From positions 1,054,001 through 1,118,000 of the forward strand of contig CM040102.1 of the NCBI GenBank assembly GCA_022496805.1: a DNA stretch of 64,000 nt, given 5' to 3'. This document shows positions 1 through 64,000 of this stretch, piece after piece. Positions within the stretch are counted from its first letter, which is position 1; each line of letters opens with the position of its first letter. The notes under the pieces are model-generated. The model was not told the origin of the DNA. It did no database searches and saw only the letters and a list, made by a program, of their open reading frames with translations. Both the position numbers and the translations under genes were made by a program. The DNA is from Pohlia nutans. Its lineage: Eukaryota; Streptophyta; Bryopsida; Bryales; Mniaceae.

Positions 1-1
1 G

Positions 2-3356: not shown

Positions 3357-3469
3357 AGAAAGTAGGCAGGTGGACTGATGTGAATCTAATAGAACTAATA
3401 TTTGTAATACATAGATGATATTACGAATGGGGTAGTGAGATGAGAATGAAGCCAAATGCATTGAAGATA

Positions 3470-6716: not shown

Positions 6717-8400
6717 ACCCGAGGGGCCTTGGGGGGGGGCGTCGCCGACGATGCCCCCCCACGGGCCCCTCGGGATTTCGCGCCATGGCGCCACGGTGTG
6801 ACGCCTTGACGCCGTGGCGTCAAGTTATCTATCAGAAAACTTGAAAACCCGAGGGGCCCCTAAGGGGGCGTCGCCGACAACGCCCCACCCGGGGCCCCTC
6901 GGGTTTTCGCGCGATGGCGCCACGGCTTGACGGCGTGACGCCGTGGCGTCAAGTTTTCTCTCACAAAACTTGAAAACTCGGGGGGCCCCAAGAGGGGCGT
7001 CGTCGGCGACGCCCCGCCTGGGGCCCCCCAGCTTTTCAAATTTTCTTCTCAGAAAACTTTCTCTCTGAAAGTTTGATGAGAGAAATATTGAAAACCAGAG
7101 GAGCCCGGGGGGGGGGGGGCGTCGCCGGCGACACCCCCCCTGGGATCCTCGGGGTTTTTGCGCCATGGCGCCACGGCGTGACGCTGTGACGCCGTGGCGG
7201 CAAGTTTTCGCAGCGAAAACTTCAAAACCCGAGGGGTCCCAAGGGGGGCGTCGCCGGCAACGCCCCCCTGGGACCCCCCGGGTTTTCGCGCCGTGGCGTC
7301 AAGATTTCTCAGCGAAAACTTGAAAACCCGGGGGGTCCCAGGGGGGGCGTCGCCGGCGACCCCCCCCCCTGGGGCCCCTCGGGTTTTCGCGCCATGGCGC
7401 CACGGCGTGACGCCGTGACGCCGTGGCGTCAAGTTTTCGCAGCGAAAACTTCAAAACCCGAGGGGTCCCAGGGGGGGCATCGCCGGCGACGCCCCCCCTG
7501 GGAACCCCCGGGTTTTTGCGCCATGGCGCCTCGGCGTGATGCCGTAACGCTGTAGCGTCATGTTTTCTCAGCGTAAACTTGAAAACCCGGGGGGTCCCAA
7601 GGGGGGCGTCGTCGACGACGCCCCCCCTGGGATCCCCCGGGTTTTCGCGCCATCGTGCCACGGCGTGACGCCGTGGCGTCAAGTTTTCTTAGCGAAAACT
7701 TGAAAACCCGGGGGGTCCCAGGGGGGGCGTCGCCGGCGACGCCCCCTCGAGGGCCCCTCGGGTTTTCACGCCATGGCGCCGTGACGCCGTGGCTTCAAGT
7801 TTTCGCAGCGAAAAGTTCAAAACCCAAGGGGTCCCGGGGGGGGGCGGTCTCCGGCAACGCCCCCCCCGGGGCCCCTCGGCTTATTAATTTTTCTTAGAAA
7901 AAATTGAAGGCCATGACGTTACGGCGTGACACTGGGCTCCAAAACCTGGGGAGCTCCAGGGGCGGCGTTGCCAGCGACGCCCCGTTATGGAAGTCTCACA
8001 AATTTTTGAAAAGGTGCTCTCAAGACCTTTCCAATGGTATATTACACGCCCCAAGCTGACAAAATCTGTGCCCGCAAGATGAAAAACCAATCCTGCAAGT
8101 AGAAAATTAAGATAAATAAAAGGCCACGGCTCCAAAACCCGGGGGGCCCCAGGGGGGGCGTCGCCGGCGACGCCCCCCCTGGGGCCCCCCGGGTTTTCAA
8201 TTCTTTTCTTAGCTTTCTGCTGGCAGGATTGGTTTTTCTTCTTGCGGGCACAATTTTTGTCAGTTTGGGGCGTGTAATATACCATTGGAAAGGTCTTGAG
8301 AGCACCTTTTCAAAAATTTGTGAGAGGCCCCTAGGGGGGCGTCGTTGGCGACGCCCCCCCTAGGGCCCCCTGGGTTTTCAACTTTTTTCTTAGTTTTCTG
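6717..8400. repeat. GC-rich hairpin array, about 13 units of about 122 bp
   Basis: Each unit is itself a long inverted repeat: GAAAACCCG, a G-run, GGGGGCGTCGCC, then the mirror GGCGACGCCCCC, a C-run and CGGGTTTTC. Units are joined by a second palindromic segment built on GGCGCCACGGCGTGACGCCG. Centres fall near 6750, 6870, 6998, 7120, 7250, 7350, 7470, 7610, 7730, 7850, 7970, 8160 and 8340. The array starts exactly where the first visible exon of gene A begins. The same junction recurs in copy B at 24,636. Open frames inside it (proline/arginine-rich) are by-products of composition, not genes. Confidence 0.8.
7987..8335. repeat. Nested palindrome of about 350 bp
   Basis: The arm at 7987-8110 (ctcacaaatttttgaaaagg...) recurs inverted at about 8205-8335 (...ccttttcaaaaatttgtgag), with a complete GC hairpin unit between the arms. 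Further diverged direct copies of the arm follow at about 8385-8500 and 8575-8690. A few arm positions differ, so this is not an assembly mirror. Confidence 0.65.
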
Positions 8401-10829: not shown

Positions 10830-11013
10830 TAGGTGCAGCGGTCATAGGTCCCATAAAATTACTATGAATAGTAAAAAATTCTATTTTTAGAAATATTTTT
10901 TCTAAAAATAACGGCAAAACTTTAATTTAGCAAGATTGTATGCTCTCTGCTCTCCAAATCACCGCTCTCCGCTCTTACGCTCTCCATTCTACGCTCGCAC
11001 GGTAGCGTCGTTG
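10830..11013 (-). repeat. Transposase-side TIR of El-A
   Basis: It is homologous to 1581-1775: a gcagcggtcatagg box, then AT-rich DNA, then GCTCTCC repeats, ending GCTCGCACGGTAGC plus GTCGTTG. It lies next to the right copy of the 9-bp duplication TTGAAGATA (11,014-11,022). It forms the inverted partner of 3470-3560. Confidence 0.7.
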
Positions 11014-11485: not shown

Positions 11486-11917
11486 TTACTGTTCCAATGC
11501 GTCCCAAAAGGGGGCTTTTGCTTCATCGTCAAAAAAATCTTCTACTGAATCTGCAATCTCTTTTGGGACAATTCTTATGTCATCACACTCAATATTGCAT
11601 GGGTCAGGAAGGCCGAGCATGTTGCAAACTTTATGACACCACATAAAACGCCATACTAAGGGATGCCTTGGCTTGTCATCCCATATTTCGCAAGGAACAT
11701 CGTATTCGTCAAGAATGTCTTTGTCCAGCAGAATGATTGCCATGTCAATCAACCGATTTTCACAGCTCGGAAACTCGGACATCCAAAGCTCAATCGCTCC
11801 TTGGACTGACTCAATAGGGTATGCCATTTGAACCTTGCGGCCATGCATGATGTACTGAGGGAAGTCTTCGACATCACGACGCCACAATGGTCCCAATATC
11901 GCCTCGTCAGAATCCAT
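11486..11917 (-). CDS. Gene Y (El-3), conserved small acidic protein of unknown function
   Basis: The 143-residue frame runs from ATG 11917 and is intact. It closely resembles the product at 60,424-60,912, roughly half the residues being identical by eye. Shared blocks are ELWM.EFP.C, AIILLDKD, PRHPLVWR.MW.H.VC, LPDPCN, IVP.EIA and FFDDE.K.PFW. Many Trp, Cys and His are conserved, but I see no known motif and no membrane segment or signal peptide. A tttgtag acceptor-like site just upstream suggests an earlier non-coding or short exon. In both copies Y is divergent from gene X and precedes the transposase on its strand. Two diverged copies with open frames suggest past selection on the protein. 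Possible roles such as transposition accessory or regulator are guesses. Confidence 0.6.
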   Translation of the reverse strand: MDSDEAILGPLWRRDVEDFPQYIMHGRKVQMAYPIESVQGAIELWMSEFPSCENRLIDMAIILLDKDILDEYDVPCEIWDDKPRHPLVWRFMWCHKVCNMLGLPDPCNIECDDIRIVPKEIADSVEDFFDDEAKAPFWDALEQ

Positions 11918-24636: not shown

Positions 24637-26139
24637 AGAGCTGCAAGCCATTGCGACTGTGCATTTGACAAGCTGCAAGTCATTGCGACTTCTATCGCAA
24701 GCCCAGATAGCAAGGTTCAGTGGTTGATGTGGAAGAACAGTTGTGAACAAACTCAGGCTGCGAGAGAGTTCCGCTCCAAAACCACCAAGGACATACTGAG
24801 TAATTGGCTAGACATGGCTTGCTGGTATGCAGGGGTGTGTCTATATGCACTTCCTCTACATGTTGATTTTGGAAATTCAATCTTTCTTGTGCTAAATCTC
24901 TTAACATTGATCACCGCAGTTCATAGACGCGGCTATCGACACCTTTAGGACCATCGGACGTGGTGGTGAAGTCTTCTGTACTCGGGTATGCGAAGAGTTA
25001 CGGGTTCATGGAGAGGAAAAACTGGGTTTGCATGAATCGCTTGCACTTGTGTCATCCGAGTAAGAAGGATTTGACGGTACGTTTTGCTTAGGCCTTTCTC
25101 TCAACATGTCCATGCAATATAAATCATTCCATAAAACCCTAAACCTTATGTGTTTCTTCCTTTGATTGTCTTCTGATGTCACAGACGCAAAGATTCGGTG
25201 CCTACCTTCTGGTGAGATCGGAGGATTCTTCCTTCGAGTTCAATCCGGTGTCGTCCATGAACGAGTTTGGAGTGGACCCTGGTTCGGACGAGTGGCTGCA
25301 AAACTACACCACCAAAATTGACCAAGCTATGAACGGCTCCAAGCCCTGGCGTGGACCCCGAGAGAAGAGCAAAGGCTTTTGGCAAGTTCTAATTGAGGCT
25401 TGTTCCAAGCCCATAGACATTGTTCTAGACTGCCACGCCATGACTGGTGAATCCCTAAACCCTTACTAGCTTTGAAGTTTTTACATTTAATCGACGAAGT
25501 TCTATCTATCTATTCATAGTACTTGTTTTCATAGACATTGTATGTGTATTCCAGGCGCTTCCATTCATGCTTGCAGGAATGTCAATCGCCACATTGTGGC
25601 TTTAGAGGAAGACAAGGCCATCTTTGATGTTCTCATCGCTCCTTTGGCGCGTGCGAAGGCTACCTACCATCGCCACAGCCTTCCGGATCGAAGCGTTCTC
25701 AGGACCCAGACAATATGGAGGTCGTACCATCGCAGGTCAAGCGAAGAAAAACGAGTAAGTAAGTCTGTTTTAATTCAAATTCCCTAGCTCTTTGATTCTG
25801 AACTCATTTCAGGAAGCTGAATGTACTAATGTTATCCATATGTGTTATAGCTTCTCAATTGGAATGAGTCCTCCTCGACACAAGCCATTTTTTGCTGCCC
25901 GGATGTTCTTTCCAAGTCCTCCGAAACCGTTTGAGCTCCCGGTGTACGTGGAGCCACTAGCTAGGGCATTTGCAGAGAATAGCCTGGATGACGTGGACAT
26001 GACTGAGGGAGTACCTGATACCGGCGTTTCACAGTACTTGGACTTAGAGGCTGCGGAGTCATCTCGCACCCATAGTTCTAGCTCTTTTTCTAGAACATCC
26101 TCTTCTACACATGAGGACTCCTGTGATGACTCCTTATAG
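24637..26139 (+). pseudogene. Methyltransferase-like gene B, internally deleted inverted copy of gene A
   Basis: Exons correspond to gene A with very few differences. An internal deletion removes the equivalent of about 5,046-6,388 of copy A. It fuses the exon starting FIDAAIDTF (24,921) to the middle of the DGGAMVV exon at about 24,955 and shifts the frame, losing motif IV and the coiled-coil exon. A second lesion is loss of one C after ARAKAT (about 25,661), which shifts the last part of the SAM-motif exon. The exons with KPWRGPREKS (25,185-25,447) and ACRN..RHIVALEED (from 25,555) and the last exon (25,852-26,139) remain. It is clearly non-functional. It belongs to El-3, whose gene X lies at 12.6 kb. 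Confidence 0.75.
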
Positions 26140-26449
26140 TGTAATGTACTTTGCATTCCTATGTTATTTTATGATTGGTAGTGAGACTGAAACGTCCACT
26201 TCACTTTGGTTCTCATAGCAGCATTATATTTTCACATCACTGTCTTCTCTGGTCGTTGATGCATTCACGAATTGATATACCCTTTCTACAACATTCACCT
26301 ACATCACGACTGAGCTCACCCCTGAACCCTAAACACTGATCTAAAATTCAACCTAAGTTTGCATGGATACAACATTTATGACCCTAAATCCCTCAATCCC
26401 TATTCCTGATGGTCCCACGGTCATAGATCCTCGTCCCACGGTCATAGGT

Positions 26450-26540
26450 TCTTTTCTTAACTGCGCGAAAAAAATCTCAAAAAATCCTACGCTCTCCGCT
26501 CTCCGCTCTCCGCTCTTGTGCTCACATACTAGCACCCCCG
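26450..26540 (-). repeat. MTase-side TIR of El-3
   Basis: Inverted counterpart of 3470-3560: CCTACGCTCTCCGCTCTCC repeats, then GCTCACATACTAGC, ending ACCCCCG at 26,540. Homology to copy A stops exactly here. The adjacent nine bases cgcggtaaa would be the target duplication; the partner is expected left of the window. Confidence 0.65.
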
Positions 26541-44397: not shown

Positions 44398-45009
44398 CGG
44401 GCGTGCTAGCATGTGAGCCTGGGAGCGTGAGCCCGGGAGCCTGTGAGCCTGAGAGCCCACAGAATTTTTCAGTTTTTTTCAGTTTGGTGGACCTATGACC
44501 GTGGGCTTTGGGATTTAGGCATTTTTTTCCATCGGTTTAGGGTGTTTAGGGATAACTTGTGTGCGGTTTTAGACAAATTGTATGTCAAAAAAATTAGTTA
44601 GGCAAAATTGATGAATGTGTGAAATGTAGTGATAATGAAAATGCATGTAACATTCTAATGTGGAGGCAATCAATTTTATAAAGAAGTTCAATGTGTTAGA
44701 ATTTTTCAAAAAGTAAGGGTTTAGGGTGATTTGATGTGTGTGAGTTTAGTGTTTAGGGGTTTAGGGTTTAAAGACCAAAATGTGTGTAGTTTTAGATTAT
44801 GTTTTCGATTCTCAAAGTTTGTTTCAAGAAACCCAATGTACAAGAATTTAGGGTAGTTCATAGAATTGAATAAGAGTGAAACCATTCAAATATGATGATG
44901 GACAACAAATGCAAATAAAGTGGTAGTGGCCCTTTTAGTCTCACTACAATCCAATAAAAACATCTGTGTCAAATAACACATAATAGTCACAAAACTCAAG
45001 AGTATAGAG

Positions 45010-48000
45010 CTATGGCGAAGCCTCAAATGAAGCCGTGGGACTAGAAGATCCGGACATAGACACCTCTATGTCACTACAATCACTACCGGATGCCTCACCA
45101 TCAGACTCAACTGCCTCCTGATCAACAAACTCTAAAACACGAGCAAAAACAAACACGGGACGAGGACTACGATCAGAAATACACTGCTCTGCAAACTGTT
45201 TTGCATTTCCTTCTGCATAAGAGGGTAGTGTGAAGGGTTTAGGGGGACTAGGAAAAAACTCCGGATTAGAGAAGAAAGGTTGGTGAATTGGAGCACTTAG
45301 TCCGCCGCATCTGAAAGCAATAAAAACCATAGTATTAGAAATATTGAAAAATTAACCACGAGAAAAGAACTACAAATCATAATGCAAAGCAATTACATAA
45401 ACCGACTTACTTACTGAATCGAGATTTCTTCACAATCGGCTCCGCTACAATGTCCTCATCGTCCATGTCATCCAAGCCAATAACAACCCTCGGTTGGCGA
45501 GGCATACGTGTCACAGTGGGTCGAATGAGAGGAGCAAGGACCGCATCAAATATAGCCTTGTCCTCCTCTAGCGCTGCGATGTGGCGGTCCACATTGCGGC
45601 AAGCGTGGATAGAGGCGCCTGGAAAAACAATCACAAAGTAGACAAATGTAAACAAACTACAAGGACAAAACTTGAAAGATAGTAGACAATCGTACACAAA
45701 ATAAATGAGAGATAGTAAACAGATGTAATCAATGTACAATGACAAAAATTCAAACATATCATTTAGAATGAGATAGAATTACTAACCAGTCGCGGTAGTG
45801 CAATCCAACACCACGTCGCCTGGGAAAGAACATGTCTCGATCAGCATCTGCATGAACAAGGTAGATTTCTCTCGCGGTCCTCGCCATGGCACCTCCCCGT
45901 TCAACAACTGGTCATCCTTACCCATGTAGTTCTGGAGGATGTCGTCACGTGCAACATCTACTCCGTTACGAAGAAGCGCAGGGACTGGTTGGAATACAAA
46001 AGATGATGGTTCCCAAGTACCCCTGACCCTGATCGCCAAACAAATGCCAAAGCGATTAGTCTGCAAAAGAAAAACACTTACATTAGTTTAGGAAAACATA
46101 TATAAAGTACTTCAAAGAAAATCAATGTCAACATTAGCTTTATAAACAAACTCACCGACAACAACGGATTCGTAGCGGATGTCAGGTGAAGACGGTTCAT
46201 TCCCCACCAGTCCTTCTTCACCTCGAATCCATAGCTCTTGCAGTAACCAAAGATCTTCGATTTTGTAGGTGATCAAAAAGGGTAAATAATAATAAGAGCA
46301 CCATCATCCTGCAGGTGTTGATCTGCAAAATCGAAAACTGGTTGCAAGAATTCTCGAGGTTCGTGGTTCCAATTGGGAACGGTGGAGGCAGGATTGGATA
46401 CGCCTGGGACTGGCAGACCCTCAGGCATATCCACGATTATGAGGTCCACTAATCCCCTGGAATTCAAGGAACCTTTATGCGCCCGGGACTTGTCATTCTT
46501 GTGCTAGAAGACAAAGAATACAATCAATGAAGTTAGTTACAAAAGCAGAGTTTTGGATTTAAACGCATTGATTGATTTAGGCATTAACACATTCCAAACA
46601 AAACTTGAACAATTAAAATACAGACATAGCACTCAACAGTCGTAGTTTCAAAAGCACAATTGAGGATTTAAACACTTTGATTGAATTATACAGGAACACA
46701 TTTCAAATCATACAGGAACAAATTATACACAAACATAGTAATCAATGAATTTACTTGCAAGAGCTCATATTATTAATTACATTGATTGTAGAAAACATTT
46801 GAAATCAAAATTGCACAAACTAAAAAAAAAAAAACTTACTTTCTTCATAAATGTCTTCAAGTCGTCATAAACCAGGGGCAATGGACCAGTTCCAGCTCCA
46901 AGAATCTGGCCCAATGATGTGTTCACTATGAACTCATCATTGGTAAAGTCCTCCACTCGTCCAAGGTCAACCACCACTGGCCCCTAAGAGAGAAAATCAT
47001 AGGGAGAATCACGCTTAGTACCTCGGGTAGGAGTCGATTGTAACTAAGATCCACCGTCCACCGTAGAAGAGGCGCCTGCAGCTTCCTTCTCGTTCTTTGC
47101 AGGTTCAACGGTCTTCTTCTTCCCCTTCTCCTTTTCTGCTGTCTTCTCTGCCGCCTTCTCAATCCTTTCCTTCTCCCTTAAGGCGGCCTTCTCAGCAGCG
47201 TCCTTCACCTTCTGTGCCTTTTTACGATCGGACTCCTCCTGTTTCTTCACCGCCTTCTCTCTGGCTTCGTCATCCTCTACATTTGCAAGCTCAATGATGT
47301 CTTCAGTTGCAATTGCAGCGGCCTCCCGATTTCGCTTGAGCTCCATTTCTTGAATTGGTGTGAAAGATGTGCTGCAATCCAGGTACCAAGCGCCAGAGTT
47401 CAAATGCGCAGTAGTCCACGTACGCAGCTGAGCCGGCGATAACATACAAGCGTTTGAAGACCGGTCCAACCAAGTGTTGAGGAAGACATGGAGATCTTCT
47501 TTAGTGATGGCCTTCTTGGGAAGAAGCTCGAACTTGAAATATCTATAACATTTCAATGTTAGTTCAATATACAAAGAACAATCATACATTGACTTGATAT
47601 GAGTATCATGAAATACAATTCACATTGCATTAAACAACTCCGTGTCAATTGATAACACTCATTCAATTGGATATCAAATTCATGTTGATACTCAATAGAC
47701 AACTCAATAACAAGTTTCAAAGTTCACTTCATAAATTAGAAACATAAAAAAACAATGTAGAAACTGTTTCGAGCACACCTGAAGATTACACGTTTCACAG
47801 CAAGGTCAGAGCCCTTGAATGAAGAGAAATCCTCAGATTTCTTGAAATGATCATGGCCCTTGAAGTAGGAAAGAAATGCATGATCCCAAAGACGAATTCT
47901 CCACTCTTCAATGAACGCACTCAATGATAGTGGCTCAAGGGGAGAGTCCATGGAAATTTTAAGATTATCTGCACGAACCATATCTTCAAACGACTGTACT

Positions 48001-49690
48001 GCCTTCTCCTCAATCTGTAATGTGAAGTATAGTCATCAATCTTGATTAATTAAAATTTTAAAAGGATGATATCAAATAAAAGAAGAAATTCAACATCTTT
48101 ATGAACAAGATTCAAAGCACGAACAATCAAATAGAAGTAGTGAAACATACCCCAGCCCACCAACATGCCTTCACAAGAAAATTTCCCAACTTCTCTTCAT
48201 TTGTAGGTCTAGGTGGAAATCGAACTGCTTCGCGGGTTGCCACGGAAGAATTGAAAAAATTTATCCATTTTACTTTGTGAACGGATGCTACATTCGATGT
48301 TGCGATGAGTTGGAGCTTCTCCAATGTTAGTTTTGGTGTAGAGTTCATCGTCCAATGTCTTTCAATCTACAATGGTATCGTGATATTAATTAGAATTCTA
48401 CTAAGGATTGCAAATCATGTAGTTCAAAAAAATGTAGATGAATGCGTACCTCCATGAGAAACTCATCTCCTAATGCAGGGTTTGCAACTGCAGCCATTTT
48501 GCCCAATTTCATCATCATTTTGGCCGTCTTTTCCTTAATTGCGGCATGCATAGCGGCCGCAATACTTCCAGCAGAGATATCATCAAGATGGGTCTGCTCA
48601 CGATGCAGTCGAGCTGCAACATCTGCCGCAACAGCAATCTCGTGCTATCCATCCAAAACCAAATGCAACATAATTAGAACCATTTATTTCATCAGTGTAA
48701 ATGGAATGTGCATGAACAAACTAAGAACGTACCCGAAACATGAATGCGGTGAACACTTCAAGTGTCAATGAATACCATGGGCGCCTTCCACTCACCATCT
48801 GGCACTTTAAAATCTCAATGGGAGAGAGGAGTTCATTGTACATCTCTAAAGGCATAACCCCATATTTTTTGCCTCTGTACAAGGTGTGAACCAAGCTGGT
48901 CTTTACGTGAGAGTCCTCGGTGTGTCTAAATACAGAGTAAAACAATTCATTAGAATAATTAATCATCAATTCGTAGTTAAAAAATGTTAATGATTCAACA
49001 AGAAATAAATAGGTATTTTATGAGACTCACTTGTTGATGTCATGCATCACTTGCATGACTACACCAATCCGCCCTTTGGTATCAAGAATAATAGCATCAA
49101 CGTGATAGTGCCACGATGGCTCATTTGCATGCAGCCTCTCAATATGGTTCATCCATGCCACACGACCGTGGTTTCCATCACACACGAAAAACATCTTATT
49201 AATAAACTGCTCCATCCCAGGGAAACCACGGAGATACTTGTTGAACTTTTCATTTTCCTCATCCCACAACCGTCCCCACTTTGCTTTGCCCTCCTGTGTG
49301 ACCTCTTGAACCTCACCTTGCTCATTAGTAACAGATACATAAAAAACCGCTGTGCCATCTCGATAACCATGAACAAACTCCTCCTCGAGTTTGATCAAAT
49401 CACATGCAAGGGTAGGCCTCACCATTGGCATACTCACCATCCTACACAATGGGATGTGATGGCGCGAAATGCTAACCGGTTCGAGTCGAAGGTTGGCGAT
49501 AGTAGCAACTGCATTCAACTTCTGCCTACTCCTTATGACATCTTCACTCGTCCCCAGCAATGCTTCATCATCGTCAACCTCATCCGCATCGTTATCCAAA
49601 GTGTCCTCTTCTCCGCTACCCAAGGAAGGTTGAGGACCAGGATCGTCCTCCATCGGACCTTGCTCAGGAGTTTGCAATATCACCTCCTTC
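45010..49690 (-). pseudogene. ParB-like / methyltransferase-like gene D, with nonsense codons
   Basis: The first visible exon (49,690-49,033) has an acidic start, then HHIPLCRMVSMPMVRPTL, an EEEFVHGYRDG strand and FFVCDGNHGRVAWMNHI followed by VDAIILD. This fits a ParB/Srx-type domain by its DGNHR-like signature. Later exons: about 48,930-48,730, 48,650-48,450, 48,360-48,150, 48,015-47,780, 47,540-46,985, 46,965-46,850, 46,500-46,150, 46,060-45,785, 45,620-45,410 and 45,312-45,010. They hold a helical middle, a Lys/Glu-rich coiled-coil, LIIVDMPEGLPVP (motif IV, DMPE), DDGALIIIYP, PWRGPREKS and GDVVLDCTTATG / ACRNVDRHIAALEED (motifs X/I). In-frame stops: TAG at 47,044-47,046, a TAG at about 46,985, and TGA at 46,273-46,275. 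It is broken but shows the full domain plan. Confidence 0.55.
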
Positions 49691-49789
49691 AAAATCAGTA
49701 AACATGCACACTTATTAGACCTTATACTAGAGCCATAGAACGGTTTCAATTAATAGCAAAAATCGAATGAAATAAAAGCACAAGCATAT

Positions 49790-52121: not shown

Positions 52122-55100
52122 TTACTTATTGAATCGAGATTTCTTCAACACTCGAACGACCGCTGATGGAATAGCGTCTGGATCCTCAGTTGCAGATGAT
52201 GATGCAACGACTGGCGCGGGTTCGGGTTTAGGGACACGTCGCATAGAAAAAAGCAGTCCATCATACAGCTCTTGGTCGTCTTCCAGTGCCACAATGCGGC
52301 ATGCCAACAACAATGCACCTAAAACAAGGCATAGATCAAAAAAACATATAAAAATTAGCCCGAGTAAGTGAAAGAGAAATTGAAACAAATAGAAAGCAAA
52401 AACAAAAAATAGAAGAAATAAAACCCAAGTAATACCGAGAAAGCATGTTAGAAATGTAAACCTGTCATAGCGGTGCAATCCAAGACAACATCGTTGGGGC
52501 GAGAAGAAGCCTCAATCAGCATCTGTAAGAACCGGCTATCCTTCTCACAAGGACCTCGCCAAGGCTTGATTCCATTCATTTTTTGTGAACTCTTGGTGGT
52601 GAAATTCTGTAACATGTCATCATATCCCACATCTAATCCCATAGCCTCAAGCGCTGGAATAGATCGAAATGCAAACCGTGCAGGAGCACCCTCGGGCAAC
52701 ACACAAACCAAGAGGTAAATGCCAAAACGCTGAGTCTGCAACATATAGAACCAAAAGAGTTAGCTAATAGTAATAGCAAAATAATAATGAATTTTTAAAT
52801 ACTAGGTAGTGCACGAGAGTTTACCGTCTTCAGATGGTTGACTGGTGATGCCAAATGGAGTCGATTCATGCAAGTCCAATCCTTGTACAACGTAAAATCC
52901 GTTGCATTACCGTAACCAAGTATGTTAGCCTTTGTTGATTGCCTATATGGATGCACAATGATGATAGCGCCATCATCAACCAAGTAATTGTCTGCAAAAT
53001 CAAAAATGGGATCAAGCCAATCGTCCTCTGCTGCATTCCATGGTGGAATCTGTCCCGGCGGATCCGAGATGGTGGGAACAGGCAGGTTCTCGGGCATGTC
53101 CACAAGAATTAAATCTACACATGGATCCTTGCACGAATGCCCTTTGAATACTTGTGGGCGGTCCGCTTTGTGCTACAAGAAACAAAACATGCACATGTAA
53201 GTAAATTAAAACTGCTAGACAAGCTTCAACAAAATAAATTGAAGTATAAAGAGTCGAAGAAGTATGTCAAACCGCATACCTCATCCAAAAACCTCTGAAG
53301 CTCTTCAAACATCTTTGGAACAGGGTCATCTTCATCCTGTGGAAGAGCAGCTGCAAGTGATGTGTTGAGTACCAACTCGTCGATGTCCTGGTCCTCTCCT
53401 AAGTCCACCACATCACGAATTTGGCCACAAAAGGCCTTGTCTTGCGATTATCATAGCTCCAAGTACCCAGAATCCCTCTTGGTACCCCGCTGCTCCTGGC
53501 TCTGGTGCTGAGATTCTGCATCAACAATACTAGAAGAAGAAGGCTTTGGGACTTCTTGTACCTTTGGATTCTTCTTTTTCTCTTCCTTTTTGGCAATCTT
53601 CTCTGCTTGTTTCTCAATCTTGGCTTGCTCCCGGGCGGCCACCTTCTCTTCATGTTGAGTAATCTTCAACGCCTTCTTCTTGTCTTCAGCCTCAACCTTA
53701 GCAATAAGTTTACGCCGCGCCTCCTCATCAAGCTTCTCCAATTCACCAACCAACAGGGCAGGTGTATCGGCAGTCTCGGCTGAGGATTTGAGATCCTTTT
53801 CCTCTGCATGTACATAACCCAACCCACAGTCCAAATACCAGCCAACCCCCTTGAGATGTGTGCTGGTCCACGTCTTCAACTGTTGTGGTGAGAACATGCA
53901 ATACTCAGAAGAAGGATCCATCCAACTCTCAAAGAACACGGGAAGATCTGTCTTGGCAATTGCCTTCTTCTCCAGTAACTCATGCTTGAAATACCTGTAG
54001 CCATACAATACTGAGCAATTAGTATTATCATTTGATGCAATATTATGTGTAACTTTACAAAAGTAACGGTTTACCTTAAAACCAAGTTAGACAAAAAGCA
54101 AAAATACCTGTAGACTACACGTTTGACCACGAGATCAGAACCCTTGAAGTCCTTGAAGGCAATTGATTTCTTGAAGGCTTCAGCCCCCTTGAAAACATTA
54201 ACAAATGCCTTGTCCCAAATCTTCACTCGCCAATACTCTATGAATTGGGAAAGTGTCCTGGGCTCTGCTGGGACATCCATGTTCAAAGGAACATTGTCTT
54301 TGTGGACAATAGTTTCAAACAACTCCACGGCGCAGTCCTCAATCTACAGAAAATATAGTTATGAAATTGAAACAATAAAATTACAAAGTATGATAGTAGA
54401 GACAGAATGTAAACAAACTAAATCAATATTGATAGAGAAACTCACCCCTCCCCACCAGGCGGCCTTCAGAATAAAGGAATTGAGGTCCACAGCATTAACT
54501 GGCCTCAAAGGAAAACGAACTGCCTCTCGTGTGTGCACAGAGGAGTTCCACCACTTCAGCCATCGGAGCTTGTGGTGAGGAGGACCAACTGTTGTAGCAA
54601 TGATCTGAAGCTTGTCCAAAGTGAGCTCCAACTGCGAGGCATTCATAGTCCAATGCCTCTCAATCTGAAAAAAGAAGTGAAAATCAAACCGTGAGCAACA
54701 GAAATACAAGCAACTTTAAGTAAAAATGAAAGAAATGAATTGATGTATACCTCTTGTAGAAACTCTGGACCGTGCGCTGGATTCGCCACAGCTATCATCT
54801 TCCCTAACTTAACAATCAGTTTTGAAGTCCTTTCCTTGATGTCCATCTTCATAGCAGCCGCAATGCCTTCCCGAGTCACATCTTCTGGTTTGGTCTCTTC
54901 ACGATAAACAAGCACAGCTAAGTCACCAGCAGCAGCAATGTCTTGCTGAAACAAGGTCCCAAAGAAAAGGATATTAGAGGTACAGATTTTAATACTAAAA
55001 TGCACACATTCACGAGAACAAAAAATGCAGTAGAGGAGTGAAAGCAGAAATATTACCCTAAACATGAGAGAAGTAAAAACGTCCTGTTGTAAATTTGTCC

Positions 55101-58100
55101 ATCCTCTCTTCACGGAATTACGACATCTTTCCATTTCCTCGGGGCTCAGTAGCTCTGAGAAATAACTGAGCGGCATTGACCCAAACTTCCGAACCTGATA
55201 GAGCTGATGAACAAGATTTGTCTTGACGTGGGAATACTCTGTTTGCCTAAAGGTCATGAACCACATCAATCATAATTAGAAGACGTATATAATCAAAATC
55301 TAGTAAACTTTGAAATTTGAAAGAAAGGATTATTGAAGGAAAACGTTTACTCACTTGTTTATGTCATTCATGACGGTCATGAGAACACCAAGTTGACCCT
55401 TGGTATCCAAGATGATTGTGTCCACGGAGTAATGCCAAGATGGAACGTCATTGTAGAGTCTAGTAATATGGTTCATCCAAGCTATACGACGGTGATTTCC
55501 ATCGCATATGAAGAACATATTCCCTTTCAAGAAACGTAATGAATCCTAAGAATCAAGATATTGATCAAATTTCTCGCTCTCAGAGTGCCAAATTGGTCCC
55601 CAATCACTACGGTCTTTGGATGACACGTGCTCCCCTTCACCTTGCTCGTTTGTTAGGGAGACATAAAAAACACAAGCACCTTCACGATAGCCATGGACGA
55701 ATTCCTGCTCAAGCTTGACAAGACCACTTTGCAGAGTGGGCCTTACCATCGGCATGACAACAAGCCTGCACAAAGGAATGTTGTGGCGAGAAATATTATG
55801 CGGTTGCAAACGTAGGGATGCAAGTGCTGCAACGGTGTTGATCTTCTGTGATCGCCGAATGTCATCCTCATTCAAACCATCCACAATGGCGATGATTGGA
55901 GATTCTTCCTCCTCATCATCATCCTCAACTTCAATCAGGGGTTGAGGGGTCTCAACAATCTCGTTTGCAGTATCATACTCCAGCTGAGGAACCTATAAAA
56001 GAGGAATTGAGAAGAACATGAATAAAGAGCCAAAAATCTAGATGGACGACTGAACCTGTGTCTTCCTTACATGAGACACAAGATCCTTTTGACAAGGTGT
56101 GGGAAATTTGCACTCCCCACAGGACTTAAACATGTGACGTGACGAGCCATCAGAGACCCTCGAGACAAGACATTGGCCCCAACGCAAAACCCTGGCCCCA
56201 TAGATGTGGAGAATTTTGAGAATAGTTTTGTGAATAGTTCGAGAATTTTGCCCTACCATCTCACACCCCAGCTCGTCACGTGACGAGTACTAATTGTGAA
56301 CCCTGGCCCTCGGAGATAGACCTCGGCCAAGACGCCTCACCCACGCCCCAGCACGCTCGAGAATTTCGCCCTCCCCAACTCACCCCAGCTCGTACGTGAC
56401 GAGTACACATTGTGAAACCTGGCCCTGGGATATAGGCCTCGGCCACAACGCCTCACCCACGACCCCAGCGAGTTCGAGAATTTTACCCTCCCCACTCACA
56501 CCCAAGCTCGTACGTGACGAGTACTAATTGTGATCCTTGGACCCTGGAATATAGGCCTCGGCCACGACGCCTCACCCACATCCCAGCAAGTTCGAGAATT
56601 TTCCCCTCCACACTCACCTTGTACTCGTCACGTGACGAGTACACATTGTGAACCCTGGCCCTGGGATATAGGCCTCGGCCACGACGCCTCACCCACGCCC
56701 CCAGCGAGTTCGAGAATTTTCCCCTCACCACTCACCCCTGCTCGTCGGGTGACGAGTACTAATTGTCATCCTTGGACCCTGGGATATAGGCCTCGGCCAC
56801 GACGCCTCACCCATGCCCCAGCGAGTTCGAGAATTTTATCCTCCCCACTCACATAGTACTCGTCACGTGACGAGTACTCATTGTGATTCTTGGACCCTGG
56901 GATATAGGCCTCGGCCACGACGCCTCACCCACGCCCCAGCAAGTTCGAGAATTTTGCCCTCCCAACTCACACCCCAAATCGTACATAACGAGTACTCATT
57001 GTGATTCTTGGACCCTGGGATATAGGCCTTGGCCACGACGCCTCACCCATAACCCAGCGAGTTCGAGAATTTTGCCCTCCCCACTCACATAGTACTCGTC
57101 ACATGATGAGTACTCATTGTGATTCTTGGACCCTGGGATGTAGGCCTCGGCCACGACGCCTCACCCACGCCCCAGCAAGTTCGAGAATTTCGCCCTCCCC
57201 TCTCACACCCCAGCTCGTACATGACGAGTACTCATTGTGATTCTTGGACCCTGGGATATAGGCCTCGGCCACGACGCCTCACCCACGCCCAGCAAGTTCG
57301 AGAATTTCGCCCTCCCCACTCACACCTCTGCTCGTACATGACGAGTACTCATTGTGATTCTTGGACCCTGGGATATTGGCCTCGGCCACGACGCCTCACC
57401 CACGCCCCAGCAAGTTCGAGAATTTCGCCCTCCCCTCTCACACCCCAAATCGTACATGACGAGTACTCATTGTGATTCTTGGACCCTAGGATATAGGCCT
57501 CGGCCACGACGCCTCACCCACGCCCCAGCAAGTTTGAGAATTTCGCCCTCCCTAACTCATCCCAACTCGTACATGACGAGTACTCATTGTGATTCTTGGA
57601 CACAGGGATATAGGCCTCGGCCACAACGCCTCACCCACGCCCCAGCAAGTTCGAGAATTTCGCCCTCCCTAACTCACCCTAGCTCGTACGTGACGAGTAC
57701 ACATTGTGAAACCTGGACCGTGGGATATAGGCCTCGGCCGCGACGCCTCACCCACGCCCCAGCAAGTTCGAGAATTTTGCCCTCCCCTCTCACACCCCAA
57801 TCGTACATGTAGAGTACTCATTGTGATTCTTGGACCCTGGGATATAGGCCTCGGCCACGACGCCTCACCCACGCCCCAGCAAGTTTGAGAATTTCGCCCT
57901 CCCTAACTCACCCTAGCTCGTACGTGACGAGTACACATTGTGAAACCTGGACCGTGGGATATAGGCCTCGGCCGCGACGCCTCACCCACGCCCCAGCAAG
58001 TTCGAGAATTTCGCCCTCCCCTCTCACACCCCAAATTGTACATGACGAATACTCATTGTGATTCTTGGACCCTGGGATATAGGCCTCGGCCACGACGCCT

Positions 58101-58808
58101 CACCCACGCCCCAGCAAGTTCGAGAATTTTACCCTCCCCACTCACACCCTAGCTCGTACGTGACAAGTACACATTGTGATTCTTGGACCCTGGGATATAG
58201 GCCTCGGCCACGACGCCTCACCCACGCCCCAGCAAGTTCGAGAATTTCGCCCTCCCTAACTCATCCCAGCTCGTACATGACGAGTACTCATTGTGATTCT
58301 TGGACCCTGGGATATAGGCTTCGGCCACAACGCCTCACCCACGCCCCAACGAGTTTGAGATTTTTGCCCTCTCCAACTCACCCCAGATCATCACGTGACG
58401 AGTACTGATGACCATGACATGACAATGACTAAGAATACCGTCATGACCATGACTTAGACCATGACATGTCAAAGGACCATGACCATGACGCTTTAACTTA
58501 ATTCTAAGGTTTTGGGCTATTGGAGGGTCTTACATTTTCTGGAGGCTGTGAATTTGGATCTTCACGTTGCGATCCAGAGGTGGCTCCGCCATCTTGTGCT
58601 TCCATCTGCGATAGCTCGTCGATCCTCGAATTCGACCCCTAAACATTCAAAATATAGTTTGGTTAAACGATCGCGTTTAAACTACTAGAGCATTGTAAGC
58701 ACTGATTGAGATCTTAGACCTAGGCACTCAAGTTACGTGGCGCATTCGATTGATGTCAGGTGGATCTGGACCCCTCGCTCCTGAGGCTGCTCTTCTCCTC
58801 TTCCCCAT
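52122..58808 (-). pseudogene. ParB-like / methyltransferase-like gene E, most complete 5' end
   Basis: Exon 1 (58,808-58,737) encodes MGKRRRAASGARG..., exon 2 (58,638-58,534) GSNSRIDELSQMEAQ..., exon 3 (55,992-55,354) an acidic region and the ParB-like domain; all three join in phase 0. Exon 3 has HNIPLCRLVVMPMVRPTL and FFICDGNHRRIAWMNHI, with a TAG at 55,546-55,548 between them. Further exons: about 55,260-55,055, 54,945-54,750, 54,665-54,446, 54,345-54,108, 53,993-53,415, 53,411-53,280, 53,173-52,823, 52,738-52,462 and 52,320-52,122. Key motifs are LILVDMPENLPVP (motif IV, DMPE), DDGAIIIVHPY, KPWRGPCEKD, NDVVLDCTAMTG and ACRIVALEDD. Tandem TGA TAA stops lie at about 53,448-53,453. The usual last exon and the TIR are missing. 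The basic N-terminus suggests nuclear location. Confidence 0.55.
56280..58400. repeat. Minisatellite of about 18 copies of 118 bp inside intron 2 of gene E
   Basis: Unit: gtgattcttggaccctggga, tataggcctcggccacgacg, cctcacccacgccccagcaa, gttcgagaattttgccctcc, then a variable spacer and a palindromic joint such as GTACTCGTCACGTGACGAGT. The array fills most of the intron 55,993-58,533. The repeated 118-residue-style frames are artefacts. It is followed by an ATGACC-rich stretch (58,405-58,490). Confidence 0.85.
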
Positions 58809-58959
58809 AATAGTCTAGAGTGGCCATCCACAAGATCCATTATTAAACACAATTTATCAAACTTCATTAAAACGAATCATCAATACTGTAAAGTACGGCA
58901 ATCAGGGTATCGTGAACCTATACCAACAGCTCCTGATCGAGCTGAAGTTTCGTGCTGTC

Positions 58960-59190
58960 AAAGATATGCGCTGAATCGAGGCAGTACGAGGGCCGCTCGA
59001 GGTAGTACGCAAGGCCGCTCGAGGCAGTACGAGGGTGTGCAAGGAAGGACGAGGAGGCGCAAGGCCGTACGAGGGTGCGCGGAGGCAGGACGAGGGTGCG
59101 CAGAGGCAGCACGTGGGTGCGCAAGGCCGGACGAGGGTGCGCAATGGCAGGACGATGGTGCACACAGGCAGCTCGTGGGTTAGGGGCGCA
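58960..59190. repeat. Short degenerate GC-rich tandem repeat
   Basis: Units of about 20-26 bp around gcgcaaggccgtacgagggt repeat about nine times between genes E and X. It could be part of the shared 5' or 3' flank; no gene. Confidence 0.6.
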
Positions 59191-59420
59191 GTCGCACGAT
59201 TTGGCTGGCCCTCTTCCGAGGTCGCTGGTTGACCAACCCTAACCCGTAGACTCCACGTCCAGTTATATTACAGTTATATTATAATTCAAATAATATTACA
59301 ACGCAATCTTCACAAATTAATTTTACTACTATGCAATAATGTTCAAATTAAGACGTTTCGTGATTCGTTAAACAACCAACGCGTGGATCATAAGAAATGC
59401 ATCAAGAGACATTGACTTAC

Positions 59421-59653
59421 AATTGGTTGTGTAGTCTTGTTTCCTTGTAGTCTGGAGTTGTCTTCACAAGTACCCTGAACTGCTACTTCTGGTGTAGGCA
59501 ATTCTGGCAGACTCGCTAAATTCGTCACTTCTTCTTCTCCAAAATCAATCTTCACGGCCAAGCTATTGTGCACTCCTGTCAATCGTGTCATCTGCTTAGA
59601 CACTCTCATCCTAGAACGATCCAAAACGCGCTTATTTGAATAGAGTAGACGCC
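59421..59653 (-). CDS. Gene X (right-hand copy), one visible exon
   Basis: Exon between an AG acceptor (59,654-59,655) and a GTAAGT donor just below 59,421. It encodes RLLYSNKRVLDRSRMR, then KIDFGEEEVTNLASLPELPTPE and a polar tail. It aligns with 12,616-12,915 (FSSKRTLERSKMR, SIDFGDDDVADLA), whose exon also ends in GTAAGT. The first and last exons were not located. It lies between gene E and the divergent gene Y. No known domain is recognised; the basic patch followed by an acidic segment would suit a small nuclear or DNA-associated protein (inference). Confidence 0.45.
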
Positions 59654-60423
59654 CTCATTTCTTTCTCTTCCTCGGCGCACTCACGTACTCTAAGTCCTTA
59701 GAACTGCTCGTCTCCAGCATCTGCCTAGTCGGTCGTCCACCATAGCAGTCCTCTGTTTCAGTTCACTAACTCTATCTGAACGCTAGCATACCTCATTTCC
59801 AAGGAGCACCAAACATGAGTCATAGTGGACAAACAACAGAGTTTCTATCAGAAATCCAACACTCGTTCACCTGATATCTAATCTCAATGACCTAGACATG
59901 GCGTTTAGCATATGCAGATGCCTGTTACACAATGATTCCCAGGATTTCTATATTCTCACTCACCCGTCATCGCGGGCAGTTTTTGACGCTATCATTAGTG
60001 TGACTCTATTCATTCTCTACAAGATCTTAACTCCACCGTCCATATCTTTGCTTTACACTCACCATTCAGCAAACGTGCAGTGGTTGAAATTTAGATATAT
60101 GTATGAGGTGTGAGCCTTTATCAATTGCGGGCGCTTGCTATAGACTGTAATATGTCGGCCTCACTGTTTATGAAATTTCCGACTTTGGTATTGCTATAAT
60201 CTGTAGTCTATACCCAAGTCTAGTATACTATGGCACCAAATATATCTCAGATCTCAGTCATGATCATTGATTTCGACGCATACAGTGAGAATGAAGTCCG
60301 ATTCAACGGAAGTATATCTGCATGTCCCAATTCATACATCATATCTTCTACACTCATTTTGATTGCCATCATCACTACTGTTCACGCTCTGAAATATCTC
60401 GCCACCATAACTCATCATCAGTG
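59654..60423. promoter_or_regulatory. Divergent region between X and Y (right-hand copy)
   Basis: 770 bp between two oppositely directed genes, paralleling 11,918-12,615. It may include an upstream X exon and 5' leaders. A shared promoter is inferred from arrangement only. Confidence 0.3.
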
Positions 60424-60912
60424 ATGGATGCTTCGGATGATCGCGAAGTCGACGAAGTGATTGACTTGGAAACCATTGACTGGTTGTGGTCGCGAAGCGA
60501 AGAAGATTACCGCATAGTGTCGAGGAATGGACGTTTGGTGCAGATGAGAAATGCCATCAACAGCTTGGAGGGTGCCGTGGAATTGTGGATGGGCGAATTC
60601 CCAAACTGTCAAGACTATGGCATTGACCTCGCCATCATCTTGCTAGACAAAGATCGACTTCGATTCTACCCAGTCCCGTGTGGAATTTGGGACTCCCTCC
60701 CTCGACATCCTCTTGTCTGGAGGCTCATGTGGTCTCATTATGTTTGTAAACTGTTGAGACTCCCCGATCCTTGCAATCTCGAAAGCGAGGGTGTTCCAAT
60801 TGTGCCAGAGGAGATTGCAACTGCCGTCCAAGACTTCTTTGACGATGAACCCAAGCCTCCGTTCTGGGGTTCTGTTCCAAACACCATGGCCATCTATTTC
60901 TCCGCTCATTGA
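60424..60912 (+). CDS. Gene Y (right-hand copy), conserved small protein of unknown function
   Basis: 162 residues from ATG 60424, intact. It begins acidic (MDASDDREVDEVIDLE), then WLWSRSEEDY, ELWMGEFPNC, LAIILLDKD, PRHPLVWRLMWSHYVC, LPDPCN, VPEEIATAVQDFFDDEPKPPFW. It aligns over nearly its full length with 11,486-11,917. The conserved tryptophans and the HPLVWR.MW.H block suggest a folded domain. I cannot place it in a family. It stands 680 bp upstream of the transposase on the same strand. An alternative longer frame from 60,322 lacks similarity to the other copy, so the 60,424 start is preferred. Confidence 0.65.
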   Translation: MDASDDREVDEVIDLETIDWLWSRSEEDYRIVSRNGRLVQMRNAINSLEGAVELWMGEFPNCQDYGIDLAIILLDKDRLRFYPVPCGIWDSLPRHPLVWRLMWSHYVCKLLRLPDPCNLESEGVPIVPEEIATAVQDFFDDEPKPPFWGSVPNTMAIYFSAH

Positions 60913-61594
60913 GTATATTTTCGAGCTACTTCAATAGAAGGTTCAGCTTAGTTTCTTATGATTGTAGTCAAAATATCTTTGTACTTAGCATGAACTGTTA
61001 TATATATAAAATAATTAGAATTAACATACAGTTCATATTCTTTATTCGATTATCAATATGATACCGTGTGTCCTAGAAAGTTTGCCTATAGTTCATATGG
61101 ATCATTCGTACAATAAGCTGAACTTTCACAAGTACTGTGTTCTCATAGTATAATCAAAGCTCAACGACAACTTCTTCACGTAAATACTATATCACATTTT
61201 TCTGTATGACCAAGCCAACTCTGAATGAGAATCTTCCCACTCTCATTACATCCACTCATTAACTTTGAACTGCGAGCTGATGCATGTGGCAGACTACATT
61301 TTCTCTCTATTATAATTAGCTTGCGCCGTATATCACTCTGACATTGTTTAGATTAATCAATCGCCTAAGGTGAAAGTGATGTCCGTTGCAAGGCGGCTCC
61401 AATCTTAGACCTATCTCACTGTCTACATTTTAATTTCTACCGTGACTCTGAATATAGTGACTCCATCGGAAACGACACCTAGTTATATTCTCAACCCAAA
61501 TTTAATGCCCCTCACAATCCATCTTCTCGTGTCTTCTTTGCTGAATTATTTCTCTTTCTTAACCAACTAGTATCTCTCTAGGCCGATCGTTTCT
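60913..61594. other. AT-rich spacer between Y and the transposase
   Basis: No gene seen; it probably contains the Y 3' end and the transposase promoter. Confidence 0.3.
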
Positions 61595-63745
61595 ATGGCC
61601 AGCATTTCCGTATGAGGTGATGAGGTCCCACTAGTTCTACCCGTAGGTGAGACTGGCTTTGTCAAAGTCACCTCTAAACTTCTCTACATTAGGTTCGGTC
61701 TAGCCGAAAGCTCTATGATGGTCGATGAAGAGATCCTTGAGAAGTATGGAATAGTGAAAGAGGGCATTTTACAGTCTAGATGCGAAGATGACGAGGGTTT
61801 CTACGAGCTCCTCCATCCGGGTCAGTACAAAGCATACGGTCTTACCCCGCAGCAACTGGCTGCATCTACTAAAATTTTAGCCCCTGCCTCAGATACTTCC
61901 ACTGTAGAGTTGCCTCACGCACGTCGTGATAGGAGGCAATTTGCAGATCCAACTCGTTCCGTTGCAGATATTATGGTCAATCTTCGTAATCCGAAACGCG
62001 AGAGTCTAGACCCCATCATTGAGTTGTCCAGTGAATCTGAGGGGGAAACACCATCACGACCCTCGCAACTTCCAAACTTGAATGATCCAGCTCCTTTTGT
62101 TGCGAGTCAAGCTACTGTCCGCACCCCCGCTAATAGTCCATCTTCTTCCTCATTCTCCCTCCCTCCTCTATATCCTAGTAGTTCACAAGATTGCCCTAGT
62201 GTTATGCAATGTTTACGGAAGCTGTCTAGTGTTCCTGGCTCTCGTAATGAACTTGCTCAAATAGATTTTGATCGCATCGAATATCATAAGGTGCAGTTCC
62301 TTCCCTCGCAGTTTGACGGGGATGTGGTCTTTGAGCTACCACCGGTTTCTGGGCGTGTACACTCTTCCGGAGCCCGGAGCATGGAGGAAATGGACAAGCG
62401 TTATGATGGCCACACATGGTGCCGCACCACGATGTCCAACATCCACAACCCCTTCGGTTTGAAGTTCAGGAGGTCGGCGTGCGTAGGACACTTGCATTGC
62501 GACAACGAGGATTGTGACTATCTTGCTAGAACGTATAAAAAGAATGAGACAGAGTGGACTGGTACAACTTACTTCCCGTTCGATATTCGTCAAAGCCCTC
62601 CTCCAGAATCTTCCATTGCATGTAGAGTCTGCAAGAAAGCCCCTTCTTGTCGTGACTCTTGCACGGCGCGCGTGTATTACGTGCTCAATGTGAACGACAA
62701 GTCTCGTGCATGTATCCATTTGGGCTTCCATCGACATCCCGTCGCTGATGGACCGTGCAGAGATTCCATGGAGACCATCACCGGCTTGATTGCATCGGAG
62801 GTGGCGAAGACTCCCACCGCCAAAAACTCGGCCATCACTCTTGCAGCTAGCAAGGAGTTCCTCGAGACGTTTCTTGTCCACAGTGGGCCAGGCCCAAAAG
62901 AGATGCTCGAAGGACAGGAACTGGACAAGGTGATGGACAAGTTCCGCATGCTCAGCTCTTCCAACGTTCGAAACATGATCGCCACTTTTCGCGCTCAAGG
63001 CAAAGGCAAAGGCGAGATTGATCAAATTCTAGAGATGAAGCGGCATGCGAAGATCGAGTTCATACAGGACAGTGTCTTCCCGGGACAAGGCCAGGAAAAG
63101 GTATATATCTTCAAAATGATCGTGCATGGCCCCGGGAGTGGCGTCGACCTCGTGAGAAGAATGCAACCTGGAGGTGACCTCCAAAATTGCTTCGTTATGT
63201 TTGATCACGTGAAGAGAGTGAAGCCGTGGACCACCATTGCTTGCCATGTTTATGACTCTACCTACTGCAAGGTGATGACCATCGCTGTCTGCGATATGCA
63301 AACGGAAGGCACTGAGGGACAACTTATATTTTGGCGTTGCCTGAACAAAGTCATGGACAACAATGGCGTACCAAATCCAAACTTCAAAGGTTTCATGTGC
63401 GACAGCGCACAAGCAAACTTCAATGCAGTTCGCATTGTCTATAGCTCGGGCAATCCTGCCGTGCCTATGGTAGACCGTGAAAGGACTTGTCTATTCCACT
63501 GGGCAACGAGCATGCACAAACACACTGAGAAGCTGATCGCCAAGAACTTCCAGAATCAGCACATCAGGCTTTGCAAACAATATAAAGATGCCCAAACAAT
63601 GGACGAAGCTGACAGGATGTACCTTGAGTTGAGAGCGTGGTGGTACTCGTCCAGTGCTGCTTGAGAGGATGCGATTCGCGAGCTTGAAGACTGGCTGGCC
63701 TTTTGGCATTTTCGCTACCGTCAATGGGGCGGTTTCATGGAAACG
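61595..63745 (+). pseudogene. MULE-like transposase, N-terminal and catalytic part (El-E), two in-frame stops
   Basis: Homology to 2,807-3,356 sets the start at ATG 61595 (MASISV, matching MANILAA); a TGA at 61,613-61,615 follows. Later, TGA at 63,662-63,664 is followed in the same frame by EDAIRELEDW and FRYRQWG, so it is also a nonsense mutation. Two Cys/His clusters lie at about residues 295-308 (C..HLHCDNEDC) and 342-356 (CRVCKKAPSCRDSC). An RNase H-like core follows: MFDHVKR near 535, GFMCDSAQANFNAVRI near 599, CLFHWA near 631. This fits a DDE transposase of Mutator type; the SWIM end is beyond the window (compare 2-1309). The frame ends at a GTAAAA donor at 63,746. Other DDE families with similar cores are possible. 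Confidence 0.6.
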
Positions 63746-64000
63746 GTAAAATATCAAAAGCCCCCTTTCATTTCACGTGGATGTTGAGAATATGTTGTAG
63801 TCCCTCGATGTCGATGGCCCTTCCCCCGTAATTGCCTGCATGTTGACGGGGTCAAGTATTGACCCCTCGGGCCCGACGGTTGCTTGGACACCTACCACTG
63901 TAAATAAATTTAGAGGAACAAAGGGCACTTAGAAAATAGCCGTCGGCCACGACGGCTATTTTTCTTAAATATATATATATTTTTTTTTTTCTCAAATCAG
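63746..64000 (+). other. Probable intron of the transposase gene, running to the window edge
   Basis: It starts GTAAAATATC in phase and the window ends with a T-run and CTCAAATCAG, a good acceptor. A perfect 13-bp stem (63,933-63,945 with 63,950-63,962, loop GCCA) lies inside. Confidence 0.5.

Follow-up and report, generated by a model that had tools for sequence, protein, structure and literature searches.

The 64-kb window analysed here (C18:1054001-1118000 of the moss Pohlia nutans, whose genome comprises 697.8 Mb in 332 contigs) holds at 52-64 kb a truncated, decayed pseudogene copy (W) of an abundant three-gene DNA transposon related to the Mutator-like elements (MULEs). It is almost certain that this MULE-like family is mobile and carries as a fixed component a gene for a ParB-methyltransferase-like protein (ParB-MTase; MTase, methyltransferase). 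The best overall explanation, to which we assign a probability of roughly 0.6, is a MULE-like three-gene family in which the ParB-MTase protein acts as a regulator of its own element. Among 2865 first-look candidates, 65 transposase copies were scored; six of them (c11a, c11b, c7a, c7b, c19a and c19b) were examined with 30 kb of surroundings each, and four copies (c11b, c7a, c7b and p1) were read whole.

A mobile unit with constant gene order

Six-frame reading of the window copy (52.1-64 kb) placed the ParB-MTase exons on the minus strand, followed by the small gene Y and the transposase on the plus strand. This agrees with the order and orientation given in an earlier note on this DNA. The parts of the window copy, in window coordinates, are as follows.

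52126..56019, minus strand: ParB-MTase-like gene, exons 1-9 of 10, pseudogene (exons mapped from the c7b model)
55355..56019, minus strand: exon 1, ParB/sulfiredoxin-fold domain, earlier called 'X' (exon mapping; fold matches of the c11b exon model)
53280..55246, minus strand: exons 2-6 of the ParB-MTase-like gene, encoding a middle region that is K/E-rich near its end (exon mapping)
52126..53172, minus strand: exons 7-9, beta-class (N6-adenine type) MTase-like domain, with motif IV DMPE and motif I DCTAMTG
56236..58409, no strand: 117-bp minisatellite array of about 18 units between the divergent genes (self-comparison)
60424..60894, plus strand: gene Y, a small protein of 157 amino acids (same stop codon in c11a, c11b and c7b)
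61595..63745, plus strand: transposase exon 1 (predicted zinc-type region and DDE-type domain), stops present (extent from comparison with c11a)

Units elsewhere in the genome have the ParB-MTase gene toward the left end, then a variable tandem array, then Y and a two-exon transposase toward the right end; the four copies read whole span 14.4-16.2 kb, and units with a long array are larger. Homology between copies ends abruptly on both sides, and in c11b and c7b terminal inverted repeats (TIRs) were located at these ends, flanked by the duplications TTGTGGAATG and GCCAAACTG. The TIRs are imperfect, typically CGGGAATGCTAGSRTGTGAGCC on the left and CAACGACGCTASCGTGCGAGCC on the right, and similar imperfect ends were found in nine of ten copies tested. 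Both TIRs together with a perfect target duplication of 9-10 bp were present in 8 of the 10 copies tested at both ends; these eight were spread over five contigs and their duplications were all distinct (by inspection, 9 bp in five copies and 10 bp in c11b, p2 and p4). The same ten included c7a, with TIRs and mismatched flanks, and p6, in which no TIRs were found. A complete element of 16,244 bp occupies C10:19066584-19082827, with the duplication GTATGACCA.

A first pairing of ParB exons and transposases lying within 40 kb yielded 12 pairs, eight divergent with ParB upstream (one of them joining the window transposase to the ParB exon of its neighbour) and four otherwise arranged. The other seven of these divergent pairs were read at their predicted ends. 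Six have a TIR on each side and a perfect match of 9-11 bp, or 9-10 bp if the first base of the element itself is not counted; at C3:10.43 the stretches read contained no TIR. Linkage was then scored with 275 distinct ParB places (two queries, 150 places each) and 150 of 593 candidate Y places. A divergent upstream ParB exon lay within 40 kb of 47 of the 65 transposase copies (50 such pairs); random placement gave a mean of 1.0 copies and a maximum of 5 in 1000 shuffles, with contig extents approximated by the largest coordinate seen. Gene Y was found upstream on the same strand in 53/65 copies, Y and ParB together in 38/65 and neither in 3/65, and a divergent ParB lay beside 111 of the 150 Y copies. 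All six closely examined transposase copies had Y within about 1.3 kb upstream; in three (c11b, c7a and c7b) the entire ParB-MTase gene occupied the corresponding divergent position, while a ParB exon lay 19.9 kb upstream of the transposase in c19a and, behind long arrays, 22.6 and 30.1 kb upstream in c11a and c19b.

Chance neighbourhood or local segmental duplication, without any transposon, would fit the nested and truncated copies, which were seen in the window only. This explanation deserves virtually no credit, being refuted by the bracketed copies with distinct duplications on five contigs and by the genome-wide linkage. The same results bear out the claim of the earlier note that the genes form one mobile unit. 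It had allowed that the genes might prove unlinked elsewhere or that TIRs might never bracket them; linkage of both ParB and Y, as well as bracketing, was found instead.

As for the window copy, it has no TIRs of its own at 52-64 kb, its homology to complete copies ending at about 51997 and 64123, and the left truncation removed 0.88 kb together with nearly all of exon 10. Its alignment to the MTase model contains 17 gap codons and six stops; four of the stops belong to a spuriously aligned stretch beyond the truncation. The transposase reading frame extends over 61616-63661 (the start at 61595 is inferred from intact copies), and stops interrupt it after codon 7 and again at 63662, still within exon 1; exon 2 with its SWIM motif lies beyond exon 1 in intact copies.

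The ParB-MTase gene

The gene comprises 10 exons and encodes an open frame of 1109 amino acids in c7b. GT-AG borders were found at all nine introns in c7b, c7a, the window copy and p1, and at eight of nine in c11b. A separate accessory gene 'X' was rejected, GT-AG splicing joining it in frame with the MTase exons. It corresponds to exon 1 with the ParB domain, and therefore Y is the sole further accessory gene left of the two accessory proteins that had been proposed.

Fold predictions covered two single-exon stretches with database relatives, and the predicted model of the c11b exon matched the ParB N-domain fold; the exon consensus includes CDGNHRRQAW. In a Pfam scan of the protein PF01555 was the sole listing (E 7.7e-6, 26.4 bits, 0.3 under the cut-off), with no DUF1985 or DUF287 of the VANC type. 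The MTase domain was similar by profile to DpnA (2.8e-7) and CcrM (4e-5), and its PHROGs matches comprised six families of methyltransferases plus a single family without assigned function. Protein-database relatives numbered 6 for the MTase domain and 222 for the ParB exon (120 listed). Profile and fold thus point to an ancestry of the two domains among bacterial beta-class adenine MTases (DpnA, CcrM, MboIIA) and ParB/Noc/sulfiredoxin-fold proteins, respectively; unlike these, the moss gene is an intron-rich fusion within a plant transposon, and its motif IV is not DPPY. No match to the ParB exon was found in a phage collection, and scans of viral contigs with ParB and transposase alignments gave pattern matches and no relative.

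Motif order in the MTase domain is that of the beta class and the region of the S-adenosylmethionine (SAM) motif is kept (motif I DCTAxTG, then A.R..RHIVALE.D). The catalytic motif IV, (D/N/S)PP(Y/F/W), is replaced by D[MY]PE or EYPD in all six aligned sequences covering it. Because of this replacement the domain is probably no standard methylase, nor a normal amino-methyltransferase, and of the label given earlier the ParB fold and the beta-class profile stand while the suffix '-like' must stay. Ratios of nonsynonymous to synonymous substitution rates (dN/dS) of 0.09-0.25 for the gene and 0.10-0.16 for the MTase domain (6 pairs each) indicate purifying selection along its length.

One alternative is that the protein is an active, unusual DNA amino-methyltransferase, whose N6-methyladenine or N4-methylcytosine mark would keep the element from being silenced or be recognised by the transposase. 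The retained motif order and SAM-motif region, as well as the low dN/dS of the domain, are compatible with activity, and precedents are described for cytosine MTases encoded by retrotransposons, which carry out de novo methylation (PMC5890265), and for an N4C MTase of bdelloids (PMC8885841). The altered motif IV, which lacks the aromatic residue in the six sequences, argues against it, and in the bdelloid enzyme, as reported in part of the latter source, replacement of the catalytic Ser and Tyr by Ala abolishes activity. An active enzyme is therefore held to be unlikely.

Host genes can be captured by MULEs. A ParB-MTase gene taken from the host and carried as cargo without a role, in the manner of Pack-MULEs, would agree with the stops seen in many copies. 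However, order and orientation are constant in the 47 linked copies, the arrangement exists in two lineages whose ParB exons are about 60% identical (p4 and p7 being close to the 49-kb type), and the whole gene is under purifying selection. In addition, an exon-by-exon search of the genome for PF01555 (N6_N4_Mtase) gave no match at E 0.001 among the 150 of 230 candidates scored; since the elements' own exons were missed too, this result speaks only against a canonical host gene. Passive capture is thus very improbable.

Transposase and gene Y

The transposase consists of two exons joined over a GT-AG intron and of 1176 amino acids, free of stops in four of the six copies (c11a, c11b, c7a and c19a); in c19b it stops at 1059 amino acids. 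The SWIM character attributed to it earlier is confirmed by a CxC-x19-CxH motif in exon 2, read by eye, to which no Pfam model matched. Its predicted model appears to fold like the ISCth4 transposase, with a probable DDE domain of IS256/Mutator type. Profile comparison with solved structures and PHROGs gave nothing above noise for the transposase; 54 relatives were found in the protein database with residues 300-1170. The dN/dS values of exon 1 ranged from 0.10 to 0.63 (7 pairs).

Several observations weigh against the best overall explanation given above. Within 40 kb, 13 ParB-transposase pairs showed other arrangements, and 18 of the 65 transposase copies had no ParB among the scored places; for these, ParB may lie among the unscored places or may have been lost. 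None of the four copies read whole has every gene intact: the MTase gene has one stop in each of c11b and c7a and four in p1, the transposase of p1 has two stops in exon 1, and that of c7b is frameshifted in exon 2 although its MTase gene is open. No Pfam model matched the transposase beyond noise in 55 relatives (Transposase_mut at E 0.034 in two of the 55). Gene Y had no match in Pfam or PHROGs, and its dN/dS (0.32-1.89, 7 pairs) exceeds 1 in one short and one very close pair, the latter giving the maximum. Finally, copies were picked by transposase similarity, and the joint inheritance of array and ParB described below is explained by linkage as well as by co-adaptation because the two are neighbours.

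Two halves with different histories

Among W, c11b, c7a, c7b and p1 (10 pairs), transposase exon 1 was 96.0-98.1% identical, versus 76.7-89.5% for the ParB-MTase gene including introns. Synonymous divergence (dS) was 0.33-1.04 in the ParB-MTase gene (6 pairs); in transposase exon 1, six copies differed from c11a by 0.01-0.10, and the copy left of the window by 0.31. Given how the copies were chosen, the result is to be read as one transposase type paired with many ParB-MTase types.

The ParB exons of W, c19a, c11a and c19b are 97.6-99.2% identical and all four copies have the 117-bp array. Identity to this group drops to 87.0-87.6% in c7a, 73.0-75.8% in c7b, c11b and p1, and 58.6-59.6% in a diverged copy neighbouring W in the window; none of these five has the array. 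Their central regions match those of the group over 0-15%, with the exception of c11b (46-49%, adjoining Y). Array and ParB-MTase gene thus travel together and recombine against the half formed by Y and the transposase. Array size in copies of the 117-bp type varied from about 2 to more than 16 kb. The ParB-MTase gene of the window was itself a mosaic relative to c7b (exons 7-8 95% identical, exons 1-5 72-77%), hinting at conversion between element families.

It is worth considering that the ParB-MTase protein might assist the transposase in transposition, bridging the ends or choosing the target, and have no part in silencing. ParB proteins act as clamps on DNA and can bridge it, and the constant pairing with the transposase would be expected. 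The recombination between the halves argues the other way: tight co-adaptation with the transposase is unlikely because one transposase type is paired with diverged ParB-MTase genes. Such a partnership is regarded as rather improbable.

The window array contains perfect palindromes of 22-24 bp with the core TCACGTGA, which resemble bacterial parS; CACGTG is the plant G-box as well. Palindromes with arms of at least 7 were found in three of nine central regions (W, c19a and c11a) and not in c19b, which has the same array type, nor in c11b, c7a, c7b, p1 or the neighbouring copy. Sites resembling parS were consequently rejected as a conserved feature, the palindromes being absent from six of the nine regions.

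Proposed mechanism and related systems

In the favoured explanation, a MULE-like family with its own regulator, the transposase would bind the TIRs through a putative zinc domain and would cut and paste by its predicted DDE active site of IS256/Mutator type. With less assurance, the ParB-MTase protein may be a sequence-specific DNA-binding regulator of its own element, loading most likely on the array or the terminal repeats, and once loaded it might block silencing or control transposase expression, as VANC does in VANDAL elements; the MTase domain would probably serve as a SAM- or DNA-binding module. Anti-silencing is the most likely of such roles, although we rate a sequence-specific regulator of the element, whatever its exact role, at a little short of even odds; the proposed function is based on the likeness to VANDAL, with its fast-changing VANC and repeats and its conserved transposase. 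More tentatively, a recruited ParB-fold clamp fused to a catalytically altered MTase may have become the element's own anti-silencing factor, loading on a hypervariable array, with protein and array types changing together by recombination between families that share one transposase; this would be a second, independently invented VANC-like system.

Hallmarks of MULEs are TIRs, duplications of the 9-bp class, the IS256/Mutator DDE fold, a SWIM motif and a zinc region, and MuDR has mudrB beside its transposase. The moss family has TIRs, such duplications, a C-terminal SWIM motif and an extra gene beside the transposase in common with MuDR and its relatives, together with a predicted DDE domain of this fold and a probable zinc DNA-binding region; it differs by lacking a Pfam MULE match, by its ParB-MTase fusion, by a length of 14-16 kb or more and by its internal satellite array. 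The 'new class' of Mutator-like element previously suggested is supported in its TIRs, its 9-10 bp duplications and its new accessory gene, and is better called a divergent Mutator-like clade.

In Arabidopsis, VANDAL21/Hiun (VANA, VANB, VANC) has a conserved transposase, whereas VANC and its non-coding tandem-repeat targets change fast, according to passages of PMC5735166; VANDAL elements are placed in the MuDR group in part of PMC12730594. Three genes, a conserved transposase, a diverging accessory gene and fast-changing repeats are common to both systems. However, VANC has DUF1985/DUF287 and no ParB or MTase, and in the moss family anti-silencing is a proposed role. Active DNA-methyltransferase genes are described, in passages of PMC5890265, for the mobile elements SymbioLINE-Dnmt and SymbioDIRS-Dnmt3 and for charophyte retrotransposons; these are C5-cytosine MTases in retrotransposons, whereas the moss family is a DNA transposon with an amino-MTase-type domain of changed motif. 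Fungal DNA transposons carry a TET/JBP dioxygenase, a relative of DNA-modification enzymes, as stated in part of PMC12730594; they differ in enzyme and host, and the term 'Mutator' is absent from the main text of that source. The bdelloid rotifer N4CMT is, like the moss gene, a eukaryotic PF01555-type MTase with introns; unlike it, N4CMT is a host gene with SPPY and demonstrated activity (passages of PMC8885841). Among the papers listed on MULEs and other transposons, moss, adenine methylation, ParB and PF01555, none reported such an element; novelty is not proven, since most subscription papers and Repbase lie outside that coverage.

Few transposons are known with DNA-modification or anti-silencing genes, and the ParB-MTase fusion adds a new type to them. 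An abundant family also offers many natural variants for tests of transposon escape from silencing. Should the MTase domain prove to be a retuned or inactivated enzyme that is strongly selected, it would represent a bacterial modification enzyme turned into a eukaryotic regulator.

Other copies and fragments in the window

Six-frame reading and self-comparison of the window revealed several copies or pieces of the ParB-MTase gene, pieces of the transposase and two copies of Y, at the positions given in the earlier note. The parts outside W are as follows.

44398..44418, plus strand: TIR at the left, MTase-side end of the diverged neighbour, with target flank GTCCTCAGA at 44389-44397
45013..49749, minus strand: ParB-MTase-like gene of this diverged neighbour, with a ParB exon of about 60% amino acid identity
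41112..44397, minus strand: a third copy of the ParB-MTase-like gene, disrupted by the insertion at 44398 (self-comparison)
3470..11013, plus strand: El-A, a shorter element with a ParB-MTase-like remnant and both TIRs, 9-bp duplication TTGAAGATA at 3461-3469 and 11014-11022
2808..3335, minus strand: El-3 transposase fragment (self-comparison)
11495..11887, minus strand: El-3 homologue of gene Y (self-comparison)
24957..26540, plus strand: El-3 ParB-MTase 3' part and MTase-side TIR at 26520-26540 (self-comparison, TIR core scan)
1..1774, plus strand: right end of a further copy, with exon 2 of the transposase and the right TIR (1755-1774); exon 1 of that copy and a piece of its Y lie immediately outside the window on the left

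Exact TIR cores were found at seven positions, namely 1755(-), 3477(+), 10993(-), 26520(-), 44405(+), 2786(-) and 38868(+), and an eighth, with one mismatch, at 40441 (0.31 expected in the window). They uphold the TIR types proposed as common to both ends, except that the TIR at 44398 had to be reassigned to the neighbouring diverged copy, inserted in the third copy. In a near-identical paralogue of the third copy outside the window (65.0-68.15 kb in the window frame, locus L009; 97.6% identity over 2.25 kb and 92.6% over 1.8 kb) the site GTCCTCAGA is uninterrupted and without a TIR. The duplication claimed for El-A proved to be perfect, and no transposase match was found within 3470-11013 by self-comparison; the pieces of El-3 display the inverse arrangement, as had been described.

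A short element of about 1 kb is present as an inverted pair (1776-2800 and 38868-39695), whose members show 89-91% identity over two stretches; one end bears the TIR core GCTACCGTGCGAGC, and the element probably derives from the family as a non-autonomous form. Weak matches to DUF7869 (E 2.8e-5, below the cut-off) characterise reading frames at 26525-28520 and in locus L028; such frames are found repeatedly less than 30 kb from transposase copies on C18, C19 and C7 and possibly represent another transposon family. A copia element at 16364-20515 has a single open frame of 1384 amino acids, and its insertion is probably recent because its 259-bp repeats at 16128 and 21331 are identical.

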